From Bacteroidales bacterium (GTDB lineage Bacteria > Bacteroidota > Bacteroidia > Bacteroidales > UBA7960): DNA of 40,176 nucleotides. Location: NCBI GenBank assembly GCA_007129945.1, contig SKUN01000155.1, forward strand, positions 1 through 40,176. Reading direction: 5' to 3'. A program made the position numbers and the translations under genes. Under the pieces are notes generated by a model. It had not been told where the DNA came from. It saw nothing but the letters and a program-made list of their open reading frames with translations, and did no database searches. This document shows positions 1,540 to 14,967 of this stretch, one piece after another (within the stretch, counting starts at the first letter, position 1; the number at the start of each line of letters is the position of its first letter).

Positions 1540-2742
1540 TCAGATGTACCTCAGGCTTACTTCTTTCAGAAATTTTTCCTCCAGAATGCGCGCAATCTTT
1601 TTCATTACCGAACGTCTGATCTCCAGTTCTACCGGGAGGTTGGGGTCCTGGTGGGCCACATTGATGGCGGTACCGGCAAGCATGTGGATTTCGTCACTTT
1701 CCAGGATCTCCCGGACGATCTTATCTGCCGGTCCCTTACCCAGTTCGGTCCGGGCACTGTAATTCTCCAGGATGCCTGCGGTCTTACTCAGGGTGAGAAT
1801 TCCCTCTGTAACCAGGTCTATCCCGTCCATGTAAGATATGGGTGGCAGATCGGGATCATCAAACTCCAGGGTGTCTTCGATGGGGATGTTGAGTTCCCGC
1901 GACACTATATCTGCAGTGGTACCACCGCAAATGATCTTCCTCCCGTTGAATTTTTCTACGACTGTCGCCAGTTCTTTGTCTTTTTTCTTTTCGAAAGGAG
2001 GACCGGAAGACAATAACAGGCGACGTGGTTCACGGCAGTATACCACCACTACACTGCTGTCGTCCTTGGCCTGGTATCCGTCGTTGGCGTGCGCCCTGTT
2101 GGTGATAACCGATGCCAGCTTCACCGCAGAAATATGGGGTTGTTCGTTGACCTGTTCGTACACGGCATTTTCCACGTTTTCCTGTCCCCATCCCAGCAGA
2201 TATTTTCCCCTGCCAAGGCCTGACTGGGTGATGCCGTCGCTCATCAGCAATATACGGTCTTCTTTCCGGGCTTTGAATGTACAGGCCCTGATCTCCTTGT
2301 CCTTGTGCTGCTGTGCCTCCAGTGTGATGTTCTGCCATTCCGGATGAAAATGTTCCTTTTCACGCATGATAATGGCATCCGGATTATCGTAGTTCAGGAT
2401 GGTCGTCTGGCCGTCTTCCTCAATGTCCACAATGGTAAAAGTCGCATAACTGATTTTACGTTCACTGCACACAGGAAGGGTATTCATGATGATTTCGGCG
2501 ATTTTGTGCGCATCCTTGTGCTCTTTGGTGAAATTCAAGGCCATGGTGGCGGTCAGGGTGGCCAGCAGGTTGGCTTTTACGCCGTGGCCCATCCCGTCTG
2601 AAAGTACTATCACTGTACGTCCTTCTTCTTTGATCTTCTCAGAGAGAAATGTGTCCCCGCATATTCTTTCTCCCACATGGTTTCTCTGGGCAGAGCCTAC
2701 TTCTATGTAAAAGCCGTCTTTCATCGGTTTTCCGGGGTTCAA
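1540..2742 (-). CDS. SpoIIE/PP2C-type serine phosphatase with an additional C-terminal domain, hydrogenase-sensor linked
   Basis: 400 aa; VLSDGMGHG, LMSDGITQSG and DDSSVVVVY match SpoIIE/PP2C metal-site motifs; about 160 aa follow the phosphatase domain. Seven bp downstream of the sensory hydrogenase-like gene on the same strand. Confidence 0.85.
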   Translation of the reverse strand: MNPGKPMKDGFYIEVGSAQRNHVGERICGDTFLSEKIKEEGRTVIVLSDGMGHGVKANLLATLTATMALNFTKEHKDAHKIAEIIMNTLPVCSERKISYATFTIVDIEEDGQTTILNYDNPDAIIMREKEHFHPEWQNITLEAQQHKDKEIRACTFKARKEDRILLMSDGITQSGLGRGKYLLGWGQENVENAVYEQVNEQPHISAVKLASVITNRAHANDGYQAKDDSSVVVVYCREPRRLLLSSGPPFEKKKDKELATVVEKFNGRKIICGGTTADIVSRELNIPIEDTLEFDDPDLPPISYMDGIDLVTEGILTLSKTAGILENYSARTELGKGPADKIVREILESDEIHMLAGTAINVAHQDPNLPVELEIRRSVMKKIARILEEKFLKEVSLRYI

Positions 2743-2748
2743 AAAATA

Positions 2749-4605
2749 TTATTCTTCTTTTTTGGTTTTCCTGAAGGTCTCAATGATGGAGTTCAGCATT
2801 TTCTCTGTGGTGCTGGCTCCTTCGCCAAGAGAAAAAGCAATTTGCTGCACCATTTTCAGGTTTTCGTCAATTACCTCGCTTACCCGGTTGATAATCTCTT
2901 CCTGCCTGACCTCCGCCACATACATATCACGGAAAACTGCTCCGACAACTTTATTGGGTTTCAGGGAATAAATGCTGATATTCAGTAACCTGTCATCATG
3001 ATATACGTCTTTGCCCACAATATTTTCATCATGTTCCAGTACGTAATCAAATAAATGATAAATATTGTAAGGAAGGAGGGTCTTCAGGTCTGCTCCCGAT
3101 AACCCCGGGATCACCTCATTGATCATCTGGGCGTCTTCTCCCAATACCTTGATGAAACTCTGGTTTGATTCGATCACCTTCAGCTTGTCGTCTACAATCA
3201 CCGAAGCGGAGGGCAGGTTTTGCATCAGGGCGGAAGTGGTATCTGAACGTTGCCGGATTTTTACGTTCTCTTCCTGCAGTTTTTTTTCTGTCTCCAGCAG
3301 GTTTTCCTGTTTCTTCTTCAGTGTTTCATTATTGGTCTTCAGTGTTTTGATGTATTCCTGTTTTTTCTTCAGGGAGTAATTCAGGCAGGTTTCGGGTCCG
3401 GAAAGACCCTGGCTGACGGATGCTGCAAAATCTTTACAGCTCCTGAAGCCGCAGGCACTGCATGAAGCGGTTTCCTCCATGCTTTTTCCCAGGCTTTTCA
3501 GAATCTCCTCCAATTGGTCCTGCCCGGGTTCAGGCAGTCGCTGATCATCTTTGGTGAAGCCTCTGTCCAGATCCAGGTTTTCGAATTGATCCATTGCTTC
3601 TTCCCATTGCTTGCTGTCGAAATTCTTCAGGCGTTTGTGCACATAATCCACGACCATTGTGCGGCGAAGATATTTATTGGAGCGATCGGTGGTTCCCGGA
3701 CCCATCAGGCATCCTGCATGATAAAAAATATTGAAGTTCTTTTTAAGCGACTCGGGATGGTCATTGAATTCGTCCACCACATCCAGCATATTGGTTTTTT
3801 CCTCCACGGTGATTACAGATCCCGTAAGCGGGGAAGTGTCCAGCCCTGCAGCATGGATGATTCCCTGGCTGATGGGATAGAGTGAACCGAGGTTGCCGAT
3901 GGGTTTGTCAAAATCTGAATACTCCACCTTCGCTTCCTTGATTTTATACTTCTCAAATAGCTCTCTTAGCTCTTTGAAGGTGAGTACCGCATCCACGGCA
4001 CCGTCTCCCTTGTGAAGGCGGGCTTCATGTTTGGCGGATAAACAGGGTCCAATAAACACGATTTTAAGCCTTTCCCCGAAGGCTTGCCTGACAACTTTTG
4101 CAGTGGCGGTCATCGGGGTGACAATGGGAGCCAGGTTATCTGTGAGTTCTGGCACAAATTTTTCCACGTAGGAAACCAGTGAAGGGCAGTTGGCCAGCAA
4201 ATAATATTTTCCCCTGAAGTCAGACAACAATTTTTTGTATTGTCTGGCCACCAGGTCTACACCAAAGGACACTTCATTCACGTAATCGAACCCAAGGGTG
4301 CGGATCATTTCCACAAATTTCCGGTAGTCGGTGATGTCGGGAAATTCCCCGCTTATGGTCGGATCCACAATGGCGGCCACTTTGTCATCGGAGTCCAGGA
4401 GCTCAATGGTGGCCTCGATCTCACTGAAGTGAGAAACCGCGTTGGAGGCACAAACCGACAGGCAGCTGCCGCATCCTATGCAGCGATTGTGATTCACCAC
4501 CGGCATACCATCCTGGCTTCGGGCGGTAATGGCCTTGACCGGACAGGCCCTGATGCAGGCATATGACTTTGTACAGCGCTTATGGTCAATTTGAATGATT
4601 TTCAT
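2749..4605 (-). CDS. Sensory [FeFe]-hydrogenase-like protein (HydS-like, phosphatase-linked): ferredoxin domain, hydrogenase large-subunit domain, 4Fe-4S domain, PAS domain
   Basis: 618 aa; N-terminal CTKSYACIRACP / CIGCGSCLSVC, hydrogenase-like LANCPSLVSYVEK and IGPCLSAKHEA, then CSACGFRSCKDFA..CLNY and a PAS-like C-terminus. Co-directional with the SpoIIE phosphatase. Confidence 0.88.
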   Translation of the reverse strand: MKIIQIDHKRCTKSYACIRACPVKAITARSQDGMPVVNHNRCIGCGSCLSVCASNAVSHFSEIEATIELLDSDDKVAAIVDPTISGEFPDITDYRKFVEMIRTLGFDYVNEVSFGVDLVARQYKKLLSDFRGKYYLLANCPSLVSYVEKFVPELTDNLAPIVTPMTATAKVVRQAFGERLKIVFIGPCLSAKHEARLHKGDGAVDAVLTFKELRELFEKYKIKEAKVEYSDFDKPIGNLGSLYPISQGIIHAAGLDTSPLTGSVITVEEKTNMLDVVDEFNDHPESLKKNFNIFYHAGCLMGPGTTDRSNKYLRRTMVVDYVHKRLKNFDSKQWEEAMDQFENLDLDRGFTKDDQRLPEPGQDQLEEILKSLGKSMEETASCSACGFRSCKDFAASVSQGLSGPETCLNYSLKKKQEYIKTLKTNNETLKKKQENLLETEKKLQEENVKIRQRSDTTSALMQNLPSASVIVDDKLKVIESNQSFIKVLGEDAQMINEVIPGLSGADLKTLLPYNIYHLFDYVLEHDENIVGKDVYHDDRLLNISIYSLKPNKVVGAVFRDMYVAEVRQEEIINRVSEVIDENLKMVQQIAFSLGEGASTTEKMLNSIIETFRKTKKEE

Positions 4606-4620: not shown

Positions 4621-4884
4621 TTACTCAACGGGGTTGTTGAAATAGCGATCCAGCAAGTCGGTTACATGATCGGAACTGACCTGGATATGTTTTTCAGACC
4701 CGATAATAATCACCGGGCCGTTTTCGCATTCACCGAAACAGTGTGAACCCCGGAAAACAATTTTACCCGCGAGTTCCTTTTCTTTGAGGTATTGTTTGAT
4801 GAGTCCGAGGGTTTTCTTATTGCCCCTGGAAAAACAGCTGCTTCCCATACAAATTACAATCTCTTCAGGGATTTGCCGACCCAT
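4621..4884 (-). CDS. Thioredoxin-like [2Fe-2S] ferredoxin domain protein
   Basis: ORF extends to 4926, but the internal Met (MGRQIPEEIVICMGSSCFSRGN...GSHCFGECENGP) at 4884 is the preferred start; four Cys in a TRX-like [2Fe-2S] arrangement. A -7-like box (TATTTTTG on the minus strand, 4931-4924) lies just upstream. Confidence 0.82.
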   Translation of the reverse strand: MGRQIPEEIVICMGSSCFSRGNKKTLGLIKQYLKEKELAGKIVFRGSHCFGECENGPVIIIGSEKHIQVSSDHVTDLLDRYFNNPVE

Positions 4885-4923
4885 AGCCTGCGCGTTTTGT
4901 GTGAACAAAAAATTGCTGAATAA

Positions 4924-4931
4924 CAAAAATA
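4924..4931 (-). promoter_or_regulatory. Candidate Bacteroidota -7 element (TATTTTTG) for the [2Fe-2S]/HydS/SpoIIE operon
   Basis: Minus strand reads TATTTTTG, matching TAnnTTTG; the -33 TTG is not well conserved. Confidence 0.4.
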
Positions 4932-5114: not shown

Positions 5115-5588
5115 ATGGAAGAAGATCTGGGTCATTTTTTTGAGAAGTTTCCAAACAGAAAACGGGAAGATCTGATCCCCCTGTTGCAGGCCATTCAGGA
5201 TGAGGAGGGATATCTTTCCGAAAAGATCATTTCCGCTGTAGGTCGCTACCTTGATATCAGCACCAATAAAATATACGGGGTGGCCACTTTTTATGACAAT
5301 TTTCGTTTCACCGCATCCGGTAAGTATCATTTTCGTGTTTGTCACGGGTCTGCCTGTCATGTGACCGGTACCGGTATGCTGGTCAGGGAACTGGAGAAGC
5401 AGTTGAAAGTGAAAGACGGAGAAACTGATAAGGAAGGATTATTCAGCCTTGAACTTGTAAGCTGTATCGGAGCCTGTGGCCTGGCACCTGTGATTGCAGT
5501 GAATGATCAATACTATACGAATGTGACCCTGGATTCTTTGAAAAACCTCATTGAATCTTTCAGGGAAATAGAAAATTCCGCCATATGA
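5115..5588 (+). CDS. hydC: NuoE-like [2Fe-2S] subunit of trimeric [FeFe] hydrogenase (HydC)
   Basis: 157 aa; CHGSACHVTG...SCIGACGLAPVIAVND, typical NuoE/HydC [2Fe-2S] ligands; first gene of the HydC-B-A order. Confidence 0.92.
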   Translation: MEEDLGHFFEKFPNRKREDLIPLLQAIQDEEGYLSEKIISAVGRYLDISTNKIYGVATFYDNFRFTASGKYHFRVCHGSACHVTGTGMLVRELEKQLKVKDGETDKEGLFSLELVSCIGACGLAPVIAVNDQYYTNVTLDSLKNLIESFREIENSAI

Positions 5589-7534
5589 CCTGGAGTAATT
5601 TGGACGATACACGTGATTTTCTGATCAGTAAGGTTTTGTTGAATCCGGAGAGGGATGCAGACCCTGAGCTGAAAAAGCCCTTGTCGTATATAGCCGGGGA
5701 GCGGATAGACAAAGCTTTGATATATGTGGGAATGGCCACATGTGGCCGCATTGCCGGTGCTGATAAAACCTACCGGAGTATCCGGACATACCTTGAAGAA
5801 CGGGATATTGATGCGCAACTGATAGAAGGGGGATGCATGGGACTTTGCCAGGCAGAACCCGTGGTGGACATTCAGCTACCGGGTAAAACCCGGCTGTCTT
5901 TCGCGTCAGTGACGGAAGACAAAGTGCAGCTTTTACTGGATGATGTATTAAACCATACGTTGCCCGATCTTCCCGTTACCGGCCAGTATAAAAGCCCCAT
6001 CCTCCGGGAGAGGGAGCAGGTGCCTTACATGGAAGATCATCCGTTTTTTGCCGGGCAGCATAAACTGCTTACTTCAAACTGTGGCCGGATCGATCCGGTT
6101 TCCGTTTCCTCCTGCATTGCCAAAGGAGGCTACCGGGCATTTGCAGATTCCATTTCCAGGTATACCCCTCTTCAGCTATGTGAGATGGTCGAAGCAAGCG
6201 GACTGACCGGCAGGGGGGGCGGAGCCTTTTCAACAGGAAAGAAATGGCTTGCGGCATCCCGGACCACCAGCGACCAGAAATTCTTTGTCTGCAACGCTGT
6301 GGAAAGTGATCCCGGCAGTTACATGAACAGGGCCATTATCGAAAGCAATCCGCACAGGCTTATTGAAGCGGCCCTGATCGGTGCCTATGCAACGGGGGCC
6401 AACAAGGCCTACATTTTTCTGCGTAAAGAATCTGCGCTGGCCGGTGACCGGCTTGAAAAAGCCCTGGAGGAAGCCCGTACGTACGGACTGACTGGTCATG
6501 ATATACTGGGCTCCGGGGTAAATATTGAGATTATTCTTAAAAGAGGCGCCAGGGCATTTATCTGCGGCGAGGAGACGGCCCTGAACAAGAGCCTGGAGGG
6601 GAAAAGGGCCATTCCTGCTTTCAAACCCCCTTACCCGCCTGAGCGTGGATTGTGGAATAAACCAACCGTGGTCAATAATGTGGAAACCTTATTCAACATT
6701 CCGCTGATCATTCAGAACGGCCCGGACTGGTTCAGGGAAACCGGCTCAGAAAGCAGCAAAGGGACCAAGCTTTTCACCCTTTCCGGAAAAATTAACCGCT
6801 ACGGAACCATTGAGGTGCCCATGGGAACCTCTTTCGAGGATATTGTGCATCAAATAGGCGGGGGTGTAAAAAATGAAAAAGCATTCAAAGGAATTGTACT
6901 GGGTATAAACAGTGGCAGTTTCATCACTCAGGAAAACCTGGATACAAGGGTTGATTATGAGGACCTGAATCGTATTGGCGGAGTTTTGGGGAGTGGTGCC
7001 TGTGTCGTCCTGGATGAAACGGTCTGTATGGTTGACCTGGCCAAATTTTTTACCGCTTTTTTCAAAAAGGAAAGTTGCGGGCAATGTATTCCCTGCAGAG
7101 AGGGTACCGCCAGGATGCTGGAGGTGATGGAAAATGCCACCAGCCGCCCTTCAGAAAACAACTCTTTTCAGACACTTGAACGCTTTAAAGGGGTGATGCA
7201 GCTCAAAAGTCTTGCAGCTGTGATCAAGGACACATCCCTCTGTTCTCTTGGAAAATCTTCGCCCAATGCCGTATTGAACACCCTGAAATATTTTAAGAAA
7301 GAATTTGAGGCGCACATTTTTGAAAGGAAATGCCACGCCAATGTTTGTACGGATTTGCAGGTATATTACATTGATGTGGATGCCTGTACGGGTTGTACGG
7401 CTTGTTTTAAGAAATGCCCGATGGATGCCATCATCGGATCACCAAGATACCCGCATTTCATTGTGCAGGAAAAATGTATTGCCTGCGGTACTTGTTACGA
7501 CGTTTGCAAATTTAATGCCGTCGTTATTAAATAA
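5585..7534 (+). CDS. hydB: NuoF-like flavoprotein/Fe-S subunit of trimeric [FeFe] hydrogenase (HydB)
   Basis: 649 aa; TRX-like [2Fe-2S] N-terminus (GGCMGLCQAEP), NuoF core (ICGEETAL, KPTVVNNVETL, ESCGQCIPCREGT), C-terminal CTGCTACFKKCP / CIACGTCYDVC. Overlaps hydC by 4 nt (ATGA). Confidence 0.93.
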   Translation: MTWSNLDDTRDFLISKVLLNPERDADPELKKPLSYIAGERIDKALIYVGMATCGRIAGADKTYRSIRTYLEERDIDAQLIEGGCMGLCQAEPVVDIQLPGKTRLSFASVTEDKVQLLLDDVLNHTLPDLPVTGQYKSPILREREQVPYMEDHPFFAGQHKLLTSNCGRIDPVSVSSCIAKGGYRAFADSISRYTPLQLCEMVEASGLTGRGGGAFSTGKKWLAASRTTSDQKFFVCNAVESDPGSYMNRAIIESNPHRLIEAALIGAYATGANKAYIFLRKESALAGDRLEKALEEARTYGLTGHDILGSGVNIEIILKRGARAFICGEETALNKSLEGKRAIPAFKPPYPPERGLWNKPTVVNNVETLFNIPLIIQNGPDWFRETGSESSKGTKLFTLSGKINRYGTIEVPMGTSFEDIVHQIGGGVKNEKAFKGIVLGINSGSFITQENLDTRVDYEDLNRIGGVLGSGACVVLDETVCMVDLAKFFTAFFKKESCGQCIPCREGTARMLEVMENATSRPSENNSFQTLERFKGVMQLKSLAAVIKDTSLCSLGKSSPNAVLNTLKYFKKEFEAHIFERKCHANVCTDLQVYYIDVDACTGCTACFKKCPMDAIIGSPRYPHFIVQEKCIACGTCYDVCKFNAVVIK

Positions 7535-7552: not shown

Positions 7553-9280
7553 ATGGATTTTCAAATAGAAGTCAATAGCAATCAACTTGATGTCAGGGAA
7601 GGGGAAAGCCTGCTGACGGCATTGACCAGGAACGGAATCAAGGTTCCCACCCTTTGTCATATGAACCGTTTTTCTCCGACGGGTGCCTGTCGGTTATGTG
7701 TGGTCGAAGTGGAAGGAAGGAAAGACCTGGTCACTTCCTGTTCTTCAAAGGTGGAAAAAGGGATGAAGGTCAGGACCAACTCCCAGCGGGTGCTGCGTGC
7801 AAGAAAGTCTCTCGTTGAACTTTTGCTCTCGAACCACCCTGATGATTGCCTTTATTGCGTGCGCAACGGACACTGTGAACTGCAGTCACTGGCAGAGGAT
7901 ATGAACATCAAGGAAAGAAAATATTACGGAGAGCAAAAGACCTTGTATCCGGATTATTCAAGTCCCAGTGTTGCACGTGATCCCGCCAAATGTGTGCTGT
8001 GCAGCCGCTGTGTCAGGATGTGTGAAGAGGTTCAGCTGGTCACTGCCCTGGATTTTATCTCCCGGGGTAACAAAACCACGGTAAACAGTGCTTTCAATAA
8101 AGGGCTGAATGTGTCTACCTGCATTCATTGCGGGCAGTGCATTCAGGTTTGCCCTACTGCGGCCCTGATCGATATTTCTCACCTGGAGAAGGTGCAAACC
8201 GCGCTGGGCAACAAGGACAAAATGGTGGTGTTTCATCTCAGTCCATCTGTCGGAGCTTCCGTGGCTGCGGAACTGAAAATGAAATCCCGCCATCTTGCCA
8301 TGGAACGCATTGCCTATGCGTTAAAAAGATGTGGGGCCTCCCGCATATTTAACCTGGGGTTTGCCAGTGATGTGAATGTCCTGGAAGAAGCCCGCATACT
8401 GAAAGAGCGGCTGGAAACGACAAGCGGGGACTTCCCTGTTATATCTTCCTGTTGTCCGGCATGGGTGCGTTATACGGAAGACCATCATCCGGAGATGCTG
8501 AACCGGCTGTCTCAGGTGAAATCCCCACAGCAGATCATGGGGGCCATGGTAAAAACAATCTATGCGGAACAGCATGAACTGGATAATGAAAACATCTTCA
8601 GTGTGTCGGTAATGCCTTGTGTAGGGAATAAATATGAATCCTCCAGAGAGGAAAACACCCATAAAGGTATCTCAGAGGTTGATGCCGTGCTGACGGTCCG
8701 GGAGCTGTTTCAACTGCTGCGCAGTTTTGGCCTGGATCTTGCGCAAATGAATGAAGAAAAGATGGATGAGCCTTATAACGAAGCTTCATCTGTTGCCTGG
8801 AAACATGGCTATTCGGGCGGTAAGGCTGAAGCTGTGGCTGAACAGCTCTTTTATATGATGGGCCACGGCAAGAAGGAAAGGTTCAAGTTCAATCCGCCCA
8901 AAAACATGACAGGCAGACGGGAAATAAAACTGACCGTTGGCGGAAAACAACTGGGTTTTGCCTGGGTGAGCAGCATAGCTGAAGCGGAGAATTACCTAAA
9001 GCATTTAAAACAGGAGGGCAGGGATGATATCCACTACGTGGAAGTGATGGCTTGCCTTGACGGATGTGTGGGCGGTGGCGGACAGCCGATCAGCCGGGGC
9101 TTTGAGATGGCCAGAACCAGGAAGAAAATGTGTCTGGAAATGGAAAAGTCTGCGGAGAAGAAGTATGCCAGGGAAAATTTAAAGGCCGGGAAGTTGTTCA
9201 GAGATGAAAAATTGAGTCCGGGCAATGAGCTGGCGGAAGAATGGCTGAAACCCGTTTTTGTTGACCGGACGTCCGAATAA
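7553..9280 (+). CDS. hydA: [FeFe] hydrogenase catalytic-type subunit (HydA), 575 aa
   Basis: N-terminal [2Fe-2S] (ACRLCVVEVEGRKDLVTSC), HPDDCLYCVRNGHC, two 4Fe-4S motifs, then H-cluster motifs SSCCPAW, MPCVGNKYE and VMACLDGCVGGGGQP. Confidence 0.94.
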   Translation: MDFQIEVNSNQLDVREGESLLTALTRNGIKVPTLCHMNRFSPTGACRLCVVEVEGRKDLVTSCSSKVEKGMKVRTNSQRVLRARKSLVELLLSNHPDDCLYCVRNGHCELQSLAEDMNIKERKYYGEQKTLYPDYSSPSVARDPAKCVLCSRCVRMCEEVQLVTALDFISRGNKTTVNSAFNKGLNVSTCIHCGQCIQVCPTAALIDISHLEKVQTALGNKDKMVVFHLSPSVGASVAAELKMKSRHLAMERIAYALKRCGASRIFNLGFASDVNVLEEARILKERLETTSGDFPVISSCCPAWVRYTEDHHPEMLNRLSQVKSPQQIMGAMVKTIYAEQHELDNENIFSVSVMPCVGNKYESSREENTHKGISEVDAVLTVRELFQLLRSFGLDLAQMNEEKMDEPYNEASSVAWKHGYSGGKAEAVAEQLFYMMGHGKKERFKFNPPKNMTGRREIKLTVGGKQLGFAWVSSIAEAENYLKHLKQEGRDDIHYVEVMACLDGCVGGGGQPISRGFEMARTRKKMCLEMEKSAEKKYARENLKAGKLFRDEKLSPGNELAEEWLKPVFVDRTSE

Positions 9281-9296
9281 AAGAAAAGGAGGGCTT

Positions 9297-11363
9297 ATGC
9301 CTGAAAAAGAAACATCGAATATTATTTATACGGTCAAGGATCGTTGCAAGGTATGCTATACCTGTGTGCGTGAATGCCCGGCCAAAGCCATTAAGATCGA
9401 GGGCGGGCAGGCTGAGATCATTCCCGGACGGTGTATTGCCTGCGGTAATTGCATTCGTGTTTGCAGCCGCGATGCGAAAATGTTCGTGTTTTCCATTGAC
9501 AAGGTGAAGAAACTGCTGAGTGGGGATCAACCTGTGGCAGCCATTGTGGCCCCGAGCATATCGGGAGAGTTTACGGATATTAAGTCTCATCAGAATTTTG
9601 TGGGCATGGTCAAAGCCCTCGGTTTCTCTTATGTGAATGAGGTAGCTTTCGGGGCAGAATTGATTGCCAGCAAATACAAAGATATGTTGCAGGCCGGGCC
9701 CAATCGTCCGTTGATTTCAACCAGTTGTCCGGCCATTGTGAGTTACGTGGAAAAACACCATCCCCAGATCATCGACTCACTGATTCAGGTGGTTTCCCCC
9801 ATGGTAGCTACCGCAAAAGTGCTCAAGGAGAAGTACGGGAATGATCTCAGGATTGTTTTTATTGGCCCCTGCATTGCCAAAAAAGTAGAAGCCGCAGAGA
9901 AACAATTTGACGGACTGATCGATGAGGTTATTTCTTTTGTGGAGCTTCGCCGGATGTTTGCTGAAAAAGGGGTGAAGGCAGAGGATGTGGAACCGATAGA
10001 TTTCGATCCGCCTGTAGCCGGTAAAGGCGCTATCTTTCCCATCAGCGGCGGAATGCTTCAAACCGTTGACCTGGATGAGGATTTCGTAAAAGGGGATATT
10101 GTGGTGGCGGAAGGACGACACGACATCATTGAGGTACTTCGTGAATTTGAAGAGGGGTACCTGGATGCCAAAATGTTTGACTTGCTTTGCTGTAACGGTT
10201 GCATCAACGGCCCCGGAATGAGCAACACCAGCAAATTCTTTTTTAAACGTAAAAGCATTTCCAACTTTGCCAAGCGACGATTTGACAAAATAGATATAGA
10301 GAACTGGCAAAATAACCTGTCCACTTACCTGAAGCTGGACCTGAGCCGGAATTTTGAGGCAGATGATCAGCGCTTCCCTACTTTGCCTGATGAAAAAGAA
10401 ATTCGTAAAGTTTTGCAGAAGATCGGTAAGAATGAGCCGGCTGATGAATTGAACTGCGGTGCCTGCGGTTATGACACCTGTTATGAGCACGCCATTTCCA
10501 TCATTCAGGGACTTGCTGAAACCGAGATGTGTCTGCCCCATACCATTGAGCAGCTGCATGAGTATATCCGTGAGCTGGATGTATCCAACAACAAACTGGC
10601 CTCGACCCAGGCGGCCCTGAAGCAAAGCGAAAAGCTTGCCAATATGGGGCAGATGGCAGCAGGAATTGCCCATGAAGTGAATAATCCGCTTGGTGTAGTG
10701 ATCATGTACAGCCACATCCTTCTGGATGAAATGGACCCCGAATCTCCGTTTTACACTGACCTGAAAATGATTGTAGAGCAGGCAGACCGGTGCAAAAATA
10801 TCGTGGGCGGCCTGCTGAATTTCGCCAGAAAAACCAAGGTCGTGATTGACCAGGTAAACATTAAAAAACTCATCGACAATGGGCTGAAAGCCTTTGTTCT
10901 TCCAAAGAACATCGATCTGGATGTGCGGATCAACGCACAGAATCCGGTGATCGAATGCGACCAGAGCCAAATGGTTCAGGTGTTTGCCAACTTGTTTAAA
11001 AATGCGGTGGATGCCATGCCCATGGGCGGTGAGTTGACGGTGAAAGTGGATGACAAAGAGGGTGAGGATGCGTTCTATATCCGCATACAGGACACAGGAA
11101 CAGGCATATCAAAACAAAATATGGACAAGATGTTTGAGCCTTTTTTCACCACCAAGGAGAAGGGGCAGGGCACCGGACTCGGGTTGCCCATCATTTACGG
11201 AATTGTGAAAATGCATCGCGGGACCATGAAAGTGGACTCCAATGCAGACCCCAAAGCCGGGCCCACAGGAACCACCTTTTATCTTACGCTGCCCCGGAAA
11301 GCAGAAAATATTAACCGACATACAGAGGATGTATCGGAAAAGGATGTAAATACCATTAAATAA
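9297..11363 (+). CDS. Hydrogenase-like-domain/histidine kinase fusion (group C1-like putative sensory [FeFe] hydrogenase)
   Basis: ORF track starts at 9258, but AAAGGAGG followed by ATG at 9297 is the better start. CKVCYTCVRECP / CIACGNCIRVC, STSCPAIVSYVEK, GPCIAKKVE, LLCCNGCINGPG, 4Fe-4S CGACGYDTC...C, then HisKA (GIAHEVNNPLG) and HATPase (GTGISKQNMDKMFEPFFTTKEKGQGTGLGL). Confidence 0.93.
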   Translation: MPEKETSNIIYTVKDRCKVCYTCVRECPAKAIKIEGGQAEIIPGRCIACGNCIRVCSRDAKMFVFSIDKVKKLLSGDQPVAAIVAPSISGEFTDIKSHQNFVGMVKALGFSYVNEVAFGAELIASKYKDMLQAGPNRPLISTSCPAIVSYVEKHHPQIIDSLIQVVSPMVATAKVLKEKYGNDLRIVFIGPCIAKKVEAAEKQFDGLIDEVISFVELRRMFAEKGVKAEDVEPIDFDPPVAGKGAIFPISGGMLQTVDLDEDFVKGDIVVAEGRHDIIEVLREFEEGYLDAKMFDLLCCNGCINGPGMSNTSKFFFKRKSISNFAKRRFDKIDIENWQNNLSTYLKLDLSRNFEADDQRFPTLPDEKEIRKVLQKIGKNEPADELNCGACGYDTCYEHAISIIQGLAETEMCLPHTIEQLHEYIRELDVSNNKLASTQAALKQSEKLANMGQMAAGIAHEVNNPLGVVIMYSHILLDEMDPESPFYTDLKMIVEQADRCKNIVGGLLNFARKTKVVIDQVNIKKLIDNGLKAFVLPKNIDLDVRINAQNPVIECDQSQMVQVFANLFKNAVDAMPMGGELTVKVDDKEGEDAFYIRIQDTGTGISKQNMDKMFEPFFTTKEKGQGTGLGLPIIYGIVKMHRGTMKVDSNADPKAGPTGTTFYLTLPRKAENINRHTEDVSEKDVNTIK

Positions 11364-13434: not shown

Positions 13435-13476
13435 GGCTAAATTATGCATTTAATTATTTGAATGCATAATTTGGCT
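13435..13476. promoter_or_regulatory. Long AT-rich inverted repeat upstream of hydG
   Basis: Perfect 12-bp arms AAATTATGCATT (13439-13450) and AATGCATAATTT (13461-13472) with a 10-nt loop, extendable with G:U pairs to 13435/13476; between ribF and hydG. Confidence 0.6.
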
Positions 13477-13539
13477 TTTGCATGCCGTTTCCTTCTGAAA
13501 CTTTGCGTAAATTTGTGCGGTAAAAAGAACATTCTATCT

Positions 13540-14967
13540 ATGATATATCATCCTGAAAAATACAGCATTGAGGATAAAAGGATGGCCCCCTTTATTGATC
13601 CGGATGAGATCTCGGATATACTCAGAAATACCAATGCAGATCGGTCCCGGGTAAGAGAAGTGATCAAGTCATCACTTGACAAAAAAAGACTCTCCCTGGA
13701 AGAAACAGCTGTTCTGATCAATGCAAAGGATCCTGACCTGATTGAGGAGATCAAAGAAGGTGCCCGTATGCTCAAAGAAAAAGTATACGGTGAACGCATC
13801 GTTTTATTTGCCCCCCTTTATGTGGGCGATCTGTGTACCAATAATTGTCAGTATTGCGGATTCAGGGCTTCCAATAAGGAGATGCAACGAATTACACTTT
13901 CCGCAAAAGAGCTTGAGAAAGAAACCAGGGCATTGGTCGACCAGGGGCATAAACGCCTTATTCTGGTCTATGGGGAGCATCCCAGATATTCACCTGAGTT
14001 TATTGCTTCCACGGTTGAAACCGTTTATGGAATCAAGCACGGCAACGGTGAGATTCGCCGGGTAAATATCAATGCGGCTCCATTTGATATTCCGGGATTC
14101 CGGGTAATCAAGGATTCAGGCATAGGTACTTTTCAGATTTTTCAGGAGACCTATCACCAGCCGACATATAAGCAAGTGCACCCCAGTGGAGTTAAACGCG
14201 ATTACGACTGGCGACTTACTTCCCTTGACCGTGCTCAGGAAGCCGGAATTGATGATGTGGGTATTGGTGCGTTGTTCGGGCTTTACGACTGGCGCTTTGA
14301 GGTGATGGGGCTGGTTCGGCACGTAAACCATTTTGAAGCGGTATACAATGTCGGCCCCCATACCATTTCATTTCCCCGATTGCAGAATGCGCACTCACTG
14401 GATATTCCCCAGGACCATATGGTTAGTGATGAGGAGTTTACACGCCTGGTTTCCATCCTGAGGCTGGCTGTTCCCTACACCGGTATGATACTCACCGCCA
14501 GGGAGCCTGCCCATATAAGGGATGAAATCCTGCGTTTTGGTGTATCTCAGATAGACGGGGGGACCAACCTGGAGCTGGGGGGCTACTCTGCAGGGCTTCA
14601 GGAAACCCAGGATCTGAGCAGGGAGCAGTTTCAGATCAATGACAACCGGTCTCTGGCGGATATCATGGACGAACTGATCCGTGCTGAGTATATCCCTTCT
14701 TTTTGCACTGCTTGTTACCGGCTCGGGCGAACCGGGGAGCATTTTATGGAGTTTTCCGTTCCCGGCTTCATCAAAAGATATTGCTCTCCCAATGCCCTGC
14801 TGACCATGGCCGAATACCTTGAGGATTATGCCAGGGAGGATACCAAAAGAGCCGGCTATGCACTGATTGAAAAAAAAGTCAATGAGTTGTCCGGCTCCGT
14901 TCCGGTGGACAAACTGAGAGAGAAGCTTCGCCTGATCAGTCAGGGGAAACGGGATTTGTATTTTTAA
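13540..14967 (+). CDS. hydG: [FeFe] hydrogenase H-cluster radical SAM maturase HydG
   Basis: Start at MIYHPEKYS (13540) preferred over 13462. Radical-SAM CTNNCQYCGF, HydG-specific C-terminal motif SFCTACYRLGRTGEHFMEF...YCSPNALLT. Confidence 0.95.
   Translation: MIYHPEKYSIEDKRMAPFIDPDEISDILRNTNADRSRVREVIKSSLDKKRLSLEETAVLINAKDPDLIEEIKEGARMLKEKVYGERIVLFAPLYVGDLCTNNCQYCGFRASNKEMQRITLSAKELEKETRALVDQGHKRLILVYGEHPRYSPEFIASTVETVYGIKHGNGEIRRVNINAAPFDIPGFRVIKDSGIGTFQIFQETYHQPTYKQVHPSGVKRDYDWRLTSLDRAQEAGIDDVGIGALFGLYDWRFEVMGLVRHVNHFEAVYNVGPHTISFPRLQNAHSLDIPQDHMVSDEEFTRLVSILRLAVPYTGMILTAREPAHIRDEILRFGVSQIDGGTNLELGGYSAGLQETQDLSREQFQINDNRSLADIMDELIRAEYIPSFCTACYRLGRTGEHFMEFSVPGFIKRYCSPNALLTMAEYLEDYAREDTKRAGYALIEKKVNELSGSVPVDKLREKLRLISQGKRDLYF

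Follow-up and report, generated by a model that had tools for sequence, protein, structure and literature searches.

The window (the whole stretch of DNA analysed, 40,176 nucleotides) encodes a 618-aa hydrogenase-like sensor which, judged from its sequence and those of its relatives, is probably a pseudo-hydrogenase that arose from the phosphatase-linked sensors of HydDB group C3 and would now act as an H2-blind redox receptor controlling a phosphatase. Its ligand substitutions are clade-wide and recurrent, and no peculiarity of the window protein. The ligand loss is maintained under selection.

Domain layout and gene neighbourhood of the sensor

The open reading frame lies at 2749-4605, where the sequence-only reading had placed it, on the minus strand. 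From N- to C-terminus the protein contains two 4Fe-4S motifs, an H-domain, a C-terminal 4-Cys cluster, a coiled coil, a PAS-like domain and a C-terminal helix. Its features are the following:

2749..4605, minus strand: phosphatase-linked HydS-type protein, 618 aa (ORF list, fold search, PAS matches)
4564..4566, minus strand: Ser14 (TCA), second ligand position of the first ferredoxin cluster (Fd1); the order mostly has Cys here, and Ser/Thr occurs in the window family and several other lineages
4450..4482, minus strand: second ferredoxin cluster (Fd2), Cys42/45/48/52; invariant in all orthologues covering the region
4186..4188, minus strand: Cys140, L1 ligand at the CpI C300 position, kept (alignment)
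4033..4044, minus strand: retained Cys188 at the CpI C355 position, and Ala191 in place of CpI Lys358, a lysine lost clade-wide (alignment)
3709..3723, minus strand: L3, with Tyr295, His296 (lost cubane ligand, CpI C499 position), Ala297, Gly298 and Cys299 (bridging Cys, CpI C503 position, kept) (homologue alignment)
3385..3462, minus strand: C-terminal Cx2Cx4Cx16C cluster, Cys382/385/390/407; invariant with one exception
2926..3207, minus strand: PAS-like domain, residues ~467-560 (model, and alignment with the PAS domain of locus L045)

The AlphaFold2 model of the sensor (pLDDT 78.5) has a hydrogenase fold, with the PAS-like domain behind a long helix. When this model was used in Foldseek, [FeFe]-hydrogenases were returned with a probability of 1.00, the best matches being CbA5H, HydABC and CpI. 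With Pfam PAS models, matches were obtained in 26 of 58 orthologues and none in the window sensor itself. The source genome is a MAG of 209 contigs, and the closest named record is a protein 95% identical to the sensor in a Bacteroidales MAG from sediment.

The sensor gene forms a conserved trio with the genes for a 2Fe-2S ferredoxin and a SpoIIE/PP2C phosphatase, and RibD is also encoded downstream. Divergent from the trio are the genes for HydC, HydB, HydA, a HydS-histidine kinase, a response regulator, Rex and HydG:

1540..2742, minus strand: SpoIIE/PP2C-type Ser/Thr phosphatase, 400 aa, downstream of the sensor (PF07228; metal-site motifs conserved in 89 orthologues)
4621..4926, minus strand: thioredoxin-like 2Fe-2S ferredoxin, upstream of the sensor (all four Cys invariant in 114 sequences)
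5115..5588, plus strand: HydC-type subunit, first gene of the divergent operon (ORF list, locus comparison)
5585..7534, plus strand: HydB-type subunit (ORF list, locus comparison)
7553..9280, plus strand: HydA-type subunit; four H-cluster Cys kept, Asn at the Lys358 position
9258..11363, plus strand: HydS linked to a histidine kinase; complete set of H-cluster ligands and Lys, with C-C-x2-C in L3
11372..11770, plus strand: response regulator receiver protein (domain search)
13462..14967, plus strand: HydG maturase (domain search)

The divergent arrangement was found again in most of 80 named loci, and the SpoIIE phosphatase gene lies downstream of the sensor in nearly every locus long enough to include it.

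Group C3 of HydDB holds the phosphatase-linked (putative) [FeFe]-hydrogenases (PMC5037454). The window sensor is like the C3, T. saccharolyticum HfsB/HfsC and R. albus HydS type in its M2f layout, with two 4Fe-4S ferredoxin clusters, H-domain, C-terminal cluster (Cx2Cx4Cx16C, Cys382-385-390-407) and PAS domain, and also in the adjacent PP2C-type phosphatase gene (SpoIIE PF07228, 1540-2742) and the HydABC genes nearby. Among the loci, the nearest to a classical PP2C-linked HydS are L045 and L155-L157. Unlike this type, the window sensor has lost Lys358 and the fourth cubane ligand, its Fd1 carries a Cys to Ser change, and the H-site has been repeatedly eroded. By layout and gene neighbourhood the sensor is thus classed as a derived relative of C3, and it is filed as no hydrogenase because the full set of four cysteines and Lys358 is lacking.

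Residues of the metal sites in the window sensor

The strings quoted in the sequence-only reading proved exact for the sensor (CTKSYACIRACP, ANCPS, GPCLSAKHE and FYHAGCLMGPG) as well as for the kinase paralogue at 9258-11363 (CKVCYTCVRECP, TSCPA, GPCIAKKVE and CCNGC). Its replacement of the second cysteine of the first ferredoxin motif by serine (Ser14, codon TCA) was confirmed, and the conserved L2 lysine is indeed replaced by alanine (Ala191, codon GCC) at the CpI Lys358 position. This lysine of the PCxxK motif contacts cyanide of [2Fe]H and is essential, as known from CpI mutants.

The assignment in L3 had to be corrected. The codons in the window sensor are TAT for Tyr295, CAT for His296 and TGC for Cys299, and Tyr295 had been taken for the replacement of the first L3 cysteine. 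In HydS kinases across the phylum L3 reads LFCEGC and in most phosphatase-linked orthologues FYCEGC, which makes it one residue shorter (C-x2-C) than C-x3-C. A few orthologues keep C-x3-C (LDLFYCDGNC, FYCDGGC, FHCDGSC), and there Tyr or His still precedes the cysteine. Homologues with Y-C-x3-C therefore rule out Tyr295 as the lost ligand; this Tyr directly precedes the ligand, which corresponds to column 296. Of the four cysteines that an H-cluster requires (CpI C300, C355, C499 and C503), C140, C188 and C299 are present, whereas 296 is His, the state found in its genus. The earlier count of three remaining cubane cysteines thus stands, the residue lost being His296 and not Tyr.

An asparagine is found at the proton-transfer cysteine position, as had been pointed out. 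However, this residue is not a ligand, and its state is unremarkable since cysteine occurs there in only 17% of sensory [FeFe] sequences (PMC10055695). The shortened L3 of the HydS kinases of the phylum (C-x2-C, often C-C-x2-C) differs from the C-x3-C of catalytic enzymes. The C-x3-C orthologues L245, L224, L225, L229, L230 and L236 are nested among C-x2-C members, where the insertion may have been regained or may be ancestral.

Ligand loss is recurrent among phosphatase-linked orthologues

In 393 genomes of the order that were scanned, more than 110 phosphatase-linked orthologues were found. Residue states were counted in 184 aligned orthologues, and the tree comprised 185 rows, outgroup included. 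Position 296 is Cys in 110 of the tree rows, and otherwise Asn (31), His (20), Asp (13), Lys (5), Gly (5) or Arg (1), so that this ligand is lost in 75/185 aligned rows. When the other three cysteines are present, only Cys, Asn, His and Asp occur (110/31/19/13). The position shows at least eight parsimony changes on the tree, with four independent pairs on well-supported branches.

Position 14 in Fd1 is Cys in 119, Ser in 60 and Thr in 3 of the 184 orthologues, nothing but these three residues being found, and changes six to seven times on the trees. A correlated loss of Cys14 and Cys296 found no support from independent pairs on the tree. Lysine at the Lys358 position (191) is present in 3/184 orthologues and absent in 181/184. 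The other H-site cysteines are kept in 176 (L1), 173 (L2) and 174 (second Cys of L3), the Fd2 cysteines in all and the C-terminal cysteines in all but one. Judged from these alignments, Lys358 loss is the basal change and the cysteine losses came later.

Cys140, Cys188 and Cys299 are invariant in the window family. Outside this family most orthologues still have four H-site cysteines. The bridging Cys is hardly ever lost, which leaves room for a modified H-cluster. Families f97 and f8, on the other hand, have lost all or most H-site cysteines (L237, L243, L246, L247, L252, L040 and L223), while Fd2, the C-terminal cluster and the ferredoxin and phosphatase genes remain. The substitutions are not unique to this genome: the same states occur in same-genus genomes and in sister genera, and chance, sequencing error and uniqueness are therefore excluded.

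The paralogues are intact at the cysteines and the sensor is under purifying selection

The kinase-linked paralogue was said to be intact, and this was borne out in the window and in all neighbouring HydS kinases, 83/83 of which have the Fd1 cysteines, all four ligands and the lysine. HydA likewise has all four H-cluster cysteines in 86/86 cases. At the Lys358 position the window HydA has Asn (VMPCVGNKYE), and the second HydA of the genome (G000:C188) is canonical. Partner HydA proteins without Lys358 occur in several lineages that also lost sensor ligands, the window included, and erosion is therefore not confined to the sensor. A residue other than Lys/Arg was counted at this position in 16/34 HydA beside a ligand-lost sensor and in 0/30 others (Fisher p 5e-6 for the raw count), a link that is not significant once relatedness is respected.

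The sensor as a whole has a dN/dS of 0.03-0.06, and its H-domain gives about 0.02-0.05, which means that the sensor is no pseudogene.

Proposed function and alternative explanations

We propose that the sensor descends from a phosphatase-linked, PAS-containing C3 sensory [FeFe]-hydrogenase in which the usual constraint on the H-cluster site was lifted. A canonical H-cluster is most likely absent. In the window lineage the H-site, with three cysteines and His296, would probably hold a single iron-sulfur cluster of altered type that lacks the [2Fe] subsite. Asn, Asp or His at 296 could be cluster ligands or merely suit the loop conformation. For the electron route, signal and coupling to the phosphatase we infer the following: electrons or the redox state of the ferredoxin pool, perhaps via the co-encoded 2Fe-2S ferredoxin, would set the state of Fd2 and the C-terminal 4-Cys cluster. 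From there the signal would run through the coiled coil and PAS domain to the SpoIIE/PP2C phosphatase, which would dephosphorylate a Ser/Thr-phosphorylated target. Fd2, the C-terminal cluster, PAS and the phosphatase are likely the signalling core, because they are kept everywhere while the H-site is lost stepwise.

We suggest more tentatively, at somewhat under even chances, that such receptors are widespread in Bacteroidales. Repeated stepwise loss of Lys358, of one cubane ligand and in some lineages of all four would then have produced H2-blind iron-sulfur redox receptors of a Ser/Thr phosphatase, with Asn/Asp/His marking a new type of H-domain cluster.

The main rival explanation, which we regard as unlikely, is a genuine H2 (or CO) sensor whose H-cluster has an unusual cubane (three Cys and His/Asn/Asp) with shifted affinity or potential. 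The three invariant cysteines of the window family speak for it, as do the residues allowed at 296, which are able to bind iron or shape the loop, and the adjoining HydABC genes. Moreover, HydG, HydF and a HydE-like gene are present in the window genome. However, Lys358 is gone at the base of the clade, L3 is one residue shorter, and sister lineages retain the operon without the whole site. Maturases were also considered as evidence on the cofactor. HydF and HydG were not found in five f23 genomes (G557, G708, G765, G816 and G643), G480 and G039. Missing maturases were rejected as proof that there is no H-cluster; the argument is insecure because the f23 genomes and G039 still carry a canonical HydA, only G480 being consistent with it. 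Besides the trio, each of the 52 trio-bearing genomes inspected for this has one or more other [FeFe]-hydrogenase domains. Most of these domains are clearly catalytic-type HydA, and HydF occurs in most of the genomes, so the tie to H2 metabolism is unbroken.

It is improbable that the H-domain holds no H-site cluster and is an empty scaffold, serving only as a fold for dimerisation or docking while Fd2, the C-terminal cluster and PAS do the signalling. Families f97 and f8, which kept everything but all or most of the ligands, would fit such a scaffold, whereas in the window family the three remaining H-site cysteines are invariant, which favours a bound cluster there.

The sequence-only reading considered an inactive receptor beside an intact sensor. 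The kinase of the window is intact, but such a pairing is not the general rule. In the f97 trio (L280-L284, five genomes) the HydABC and kinase genes are not adjacent and the sensor has no H-cluster cysteine, and its function is therefore independent of kinase pairing. The five f97 genomes have HydA elsewhere, and no kinase-sized match was found in them. An antagonist of the kinase-type HydS, acting as a decoy in mixed complexes or opposing the kinase through the phosphatase in one circuit, is suggested by the side-by-side divergent operons of most loci. It is very improbable given this persistence of the f97 trio and the action of PP2C enzymes on Ser/Thr-P, not on His/Asp-P. A decaying pseudogene or assembly error, which the lost ligand residues might suggest, has practically no chance, being ruled out by the low dN/dS, the full length and the conservation of the same states in same-genus genomes.

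Comparison with other sensory and hydrogenase-like proteins

The pseudo-hydrogenase that we favour was compared with known proteins. T. maritima HydS (group C, M2f) has the domain order of the window sensor, PAS included, but keeps all H-cluster cysteines and binds the H-cluster, unlike the window sensor with its three (PMC10055695). T. mathranii HydS (group D) shares the two N-terminal clusters and the C-terminal 4-Cys cluster, whereas it has no PAS and a full H-cluster. Its C20A variant, affecting one N-terminal cluster, could not become holoenzyme (PMC13104023); in the family of the window sensor an Fd1 ligand was replaced naturally. H2 failed to reduce the C-terminal cluster of TamHydS (PMC13104023). 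Among the sensory enzymes of groups C and D examined to date the H-cluster cysteines are retained, and the differences lie at C299, M353 and M497 (PMC10055695). By sequence, the loss of a cubane ligand and Lys358 exceeds these differences.

Nar1 is [FeFe]-hydrogenase-like without [2Fe]H, is oxygen-sensitive and has a proposed redox role (PMC12621388). This eukaryotic CIA protein (Nar1/IOP1) demonstrates, by analogy, that absence of [2Fe]H need not leave an H-domain without function. For the window sensor the absence of [2Fe]H is suggested by the lost ligand residues, although maturases are present in its genome. Nar1, in contrast, keeps four site-1 cysteines and has no PAS, C-terminal 4-Cys cluster or phosphatase. 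In group C1 proteins of Hydrogenedentota the H-cluster motifs are hard to recognise and H2 sensing has been doubted (PMC11406978). These are kinase-type proteins of another phylum.

In sensory [FeFe]-hydrogenases the signal may be carried by the H-cluster, by the N-terminal relay or by the C-terminal cluster. Here the H-cluster site was removed stepwise in nature while Fd2, the C-terminal cluster, PAS and phosphatase stayed fixed, which points to these as the signalling core. Variants with four Cys, with three Cys and His/Asn/Asp, and with no Cys offer natural material for testing the signal route. When MAGs are annotated, hydrogen sensing should not be concluded from homology with a hydrogen sensor.

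Search for a phosphatase target, and other loci

A search for a STAS target of the phosphatase gave only two STAS matches, both inside larger open frames, and no clear anti-anti-sigma partner. Locus L278 (G000:C202:1357-2869) encodes a 457-aa hydrogenase-like protein, group D-like and with C-x3-C, and adjoins a gene for a 146-aa RsbW-like ATPase and a PHP-domain gene. In L062, L063, L069-L072 and L074 an open frame of ~900-1050 aa with weak kinase similarity lies between the phosphatase gene and ribD.
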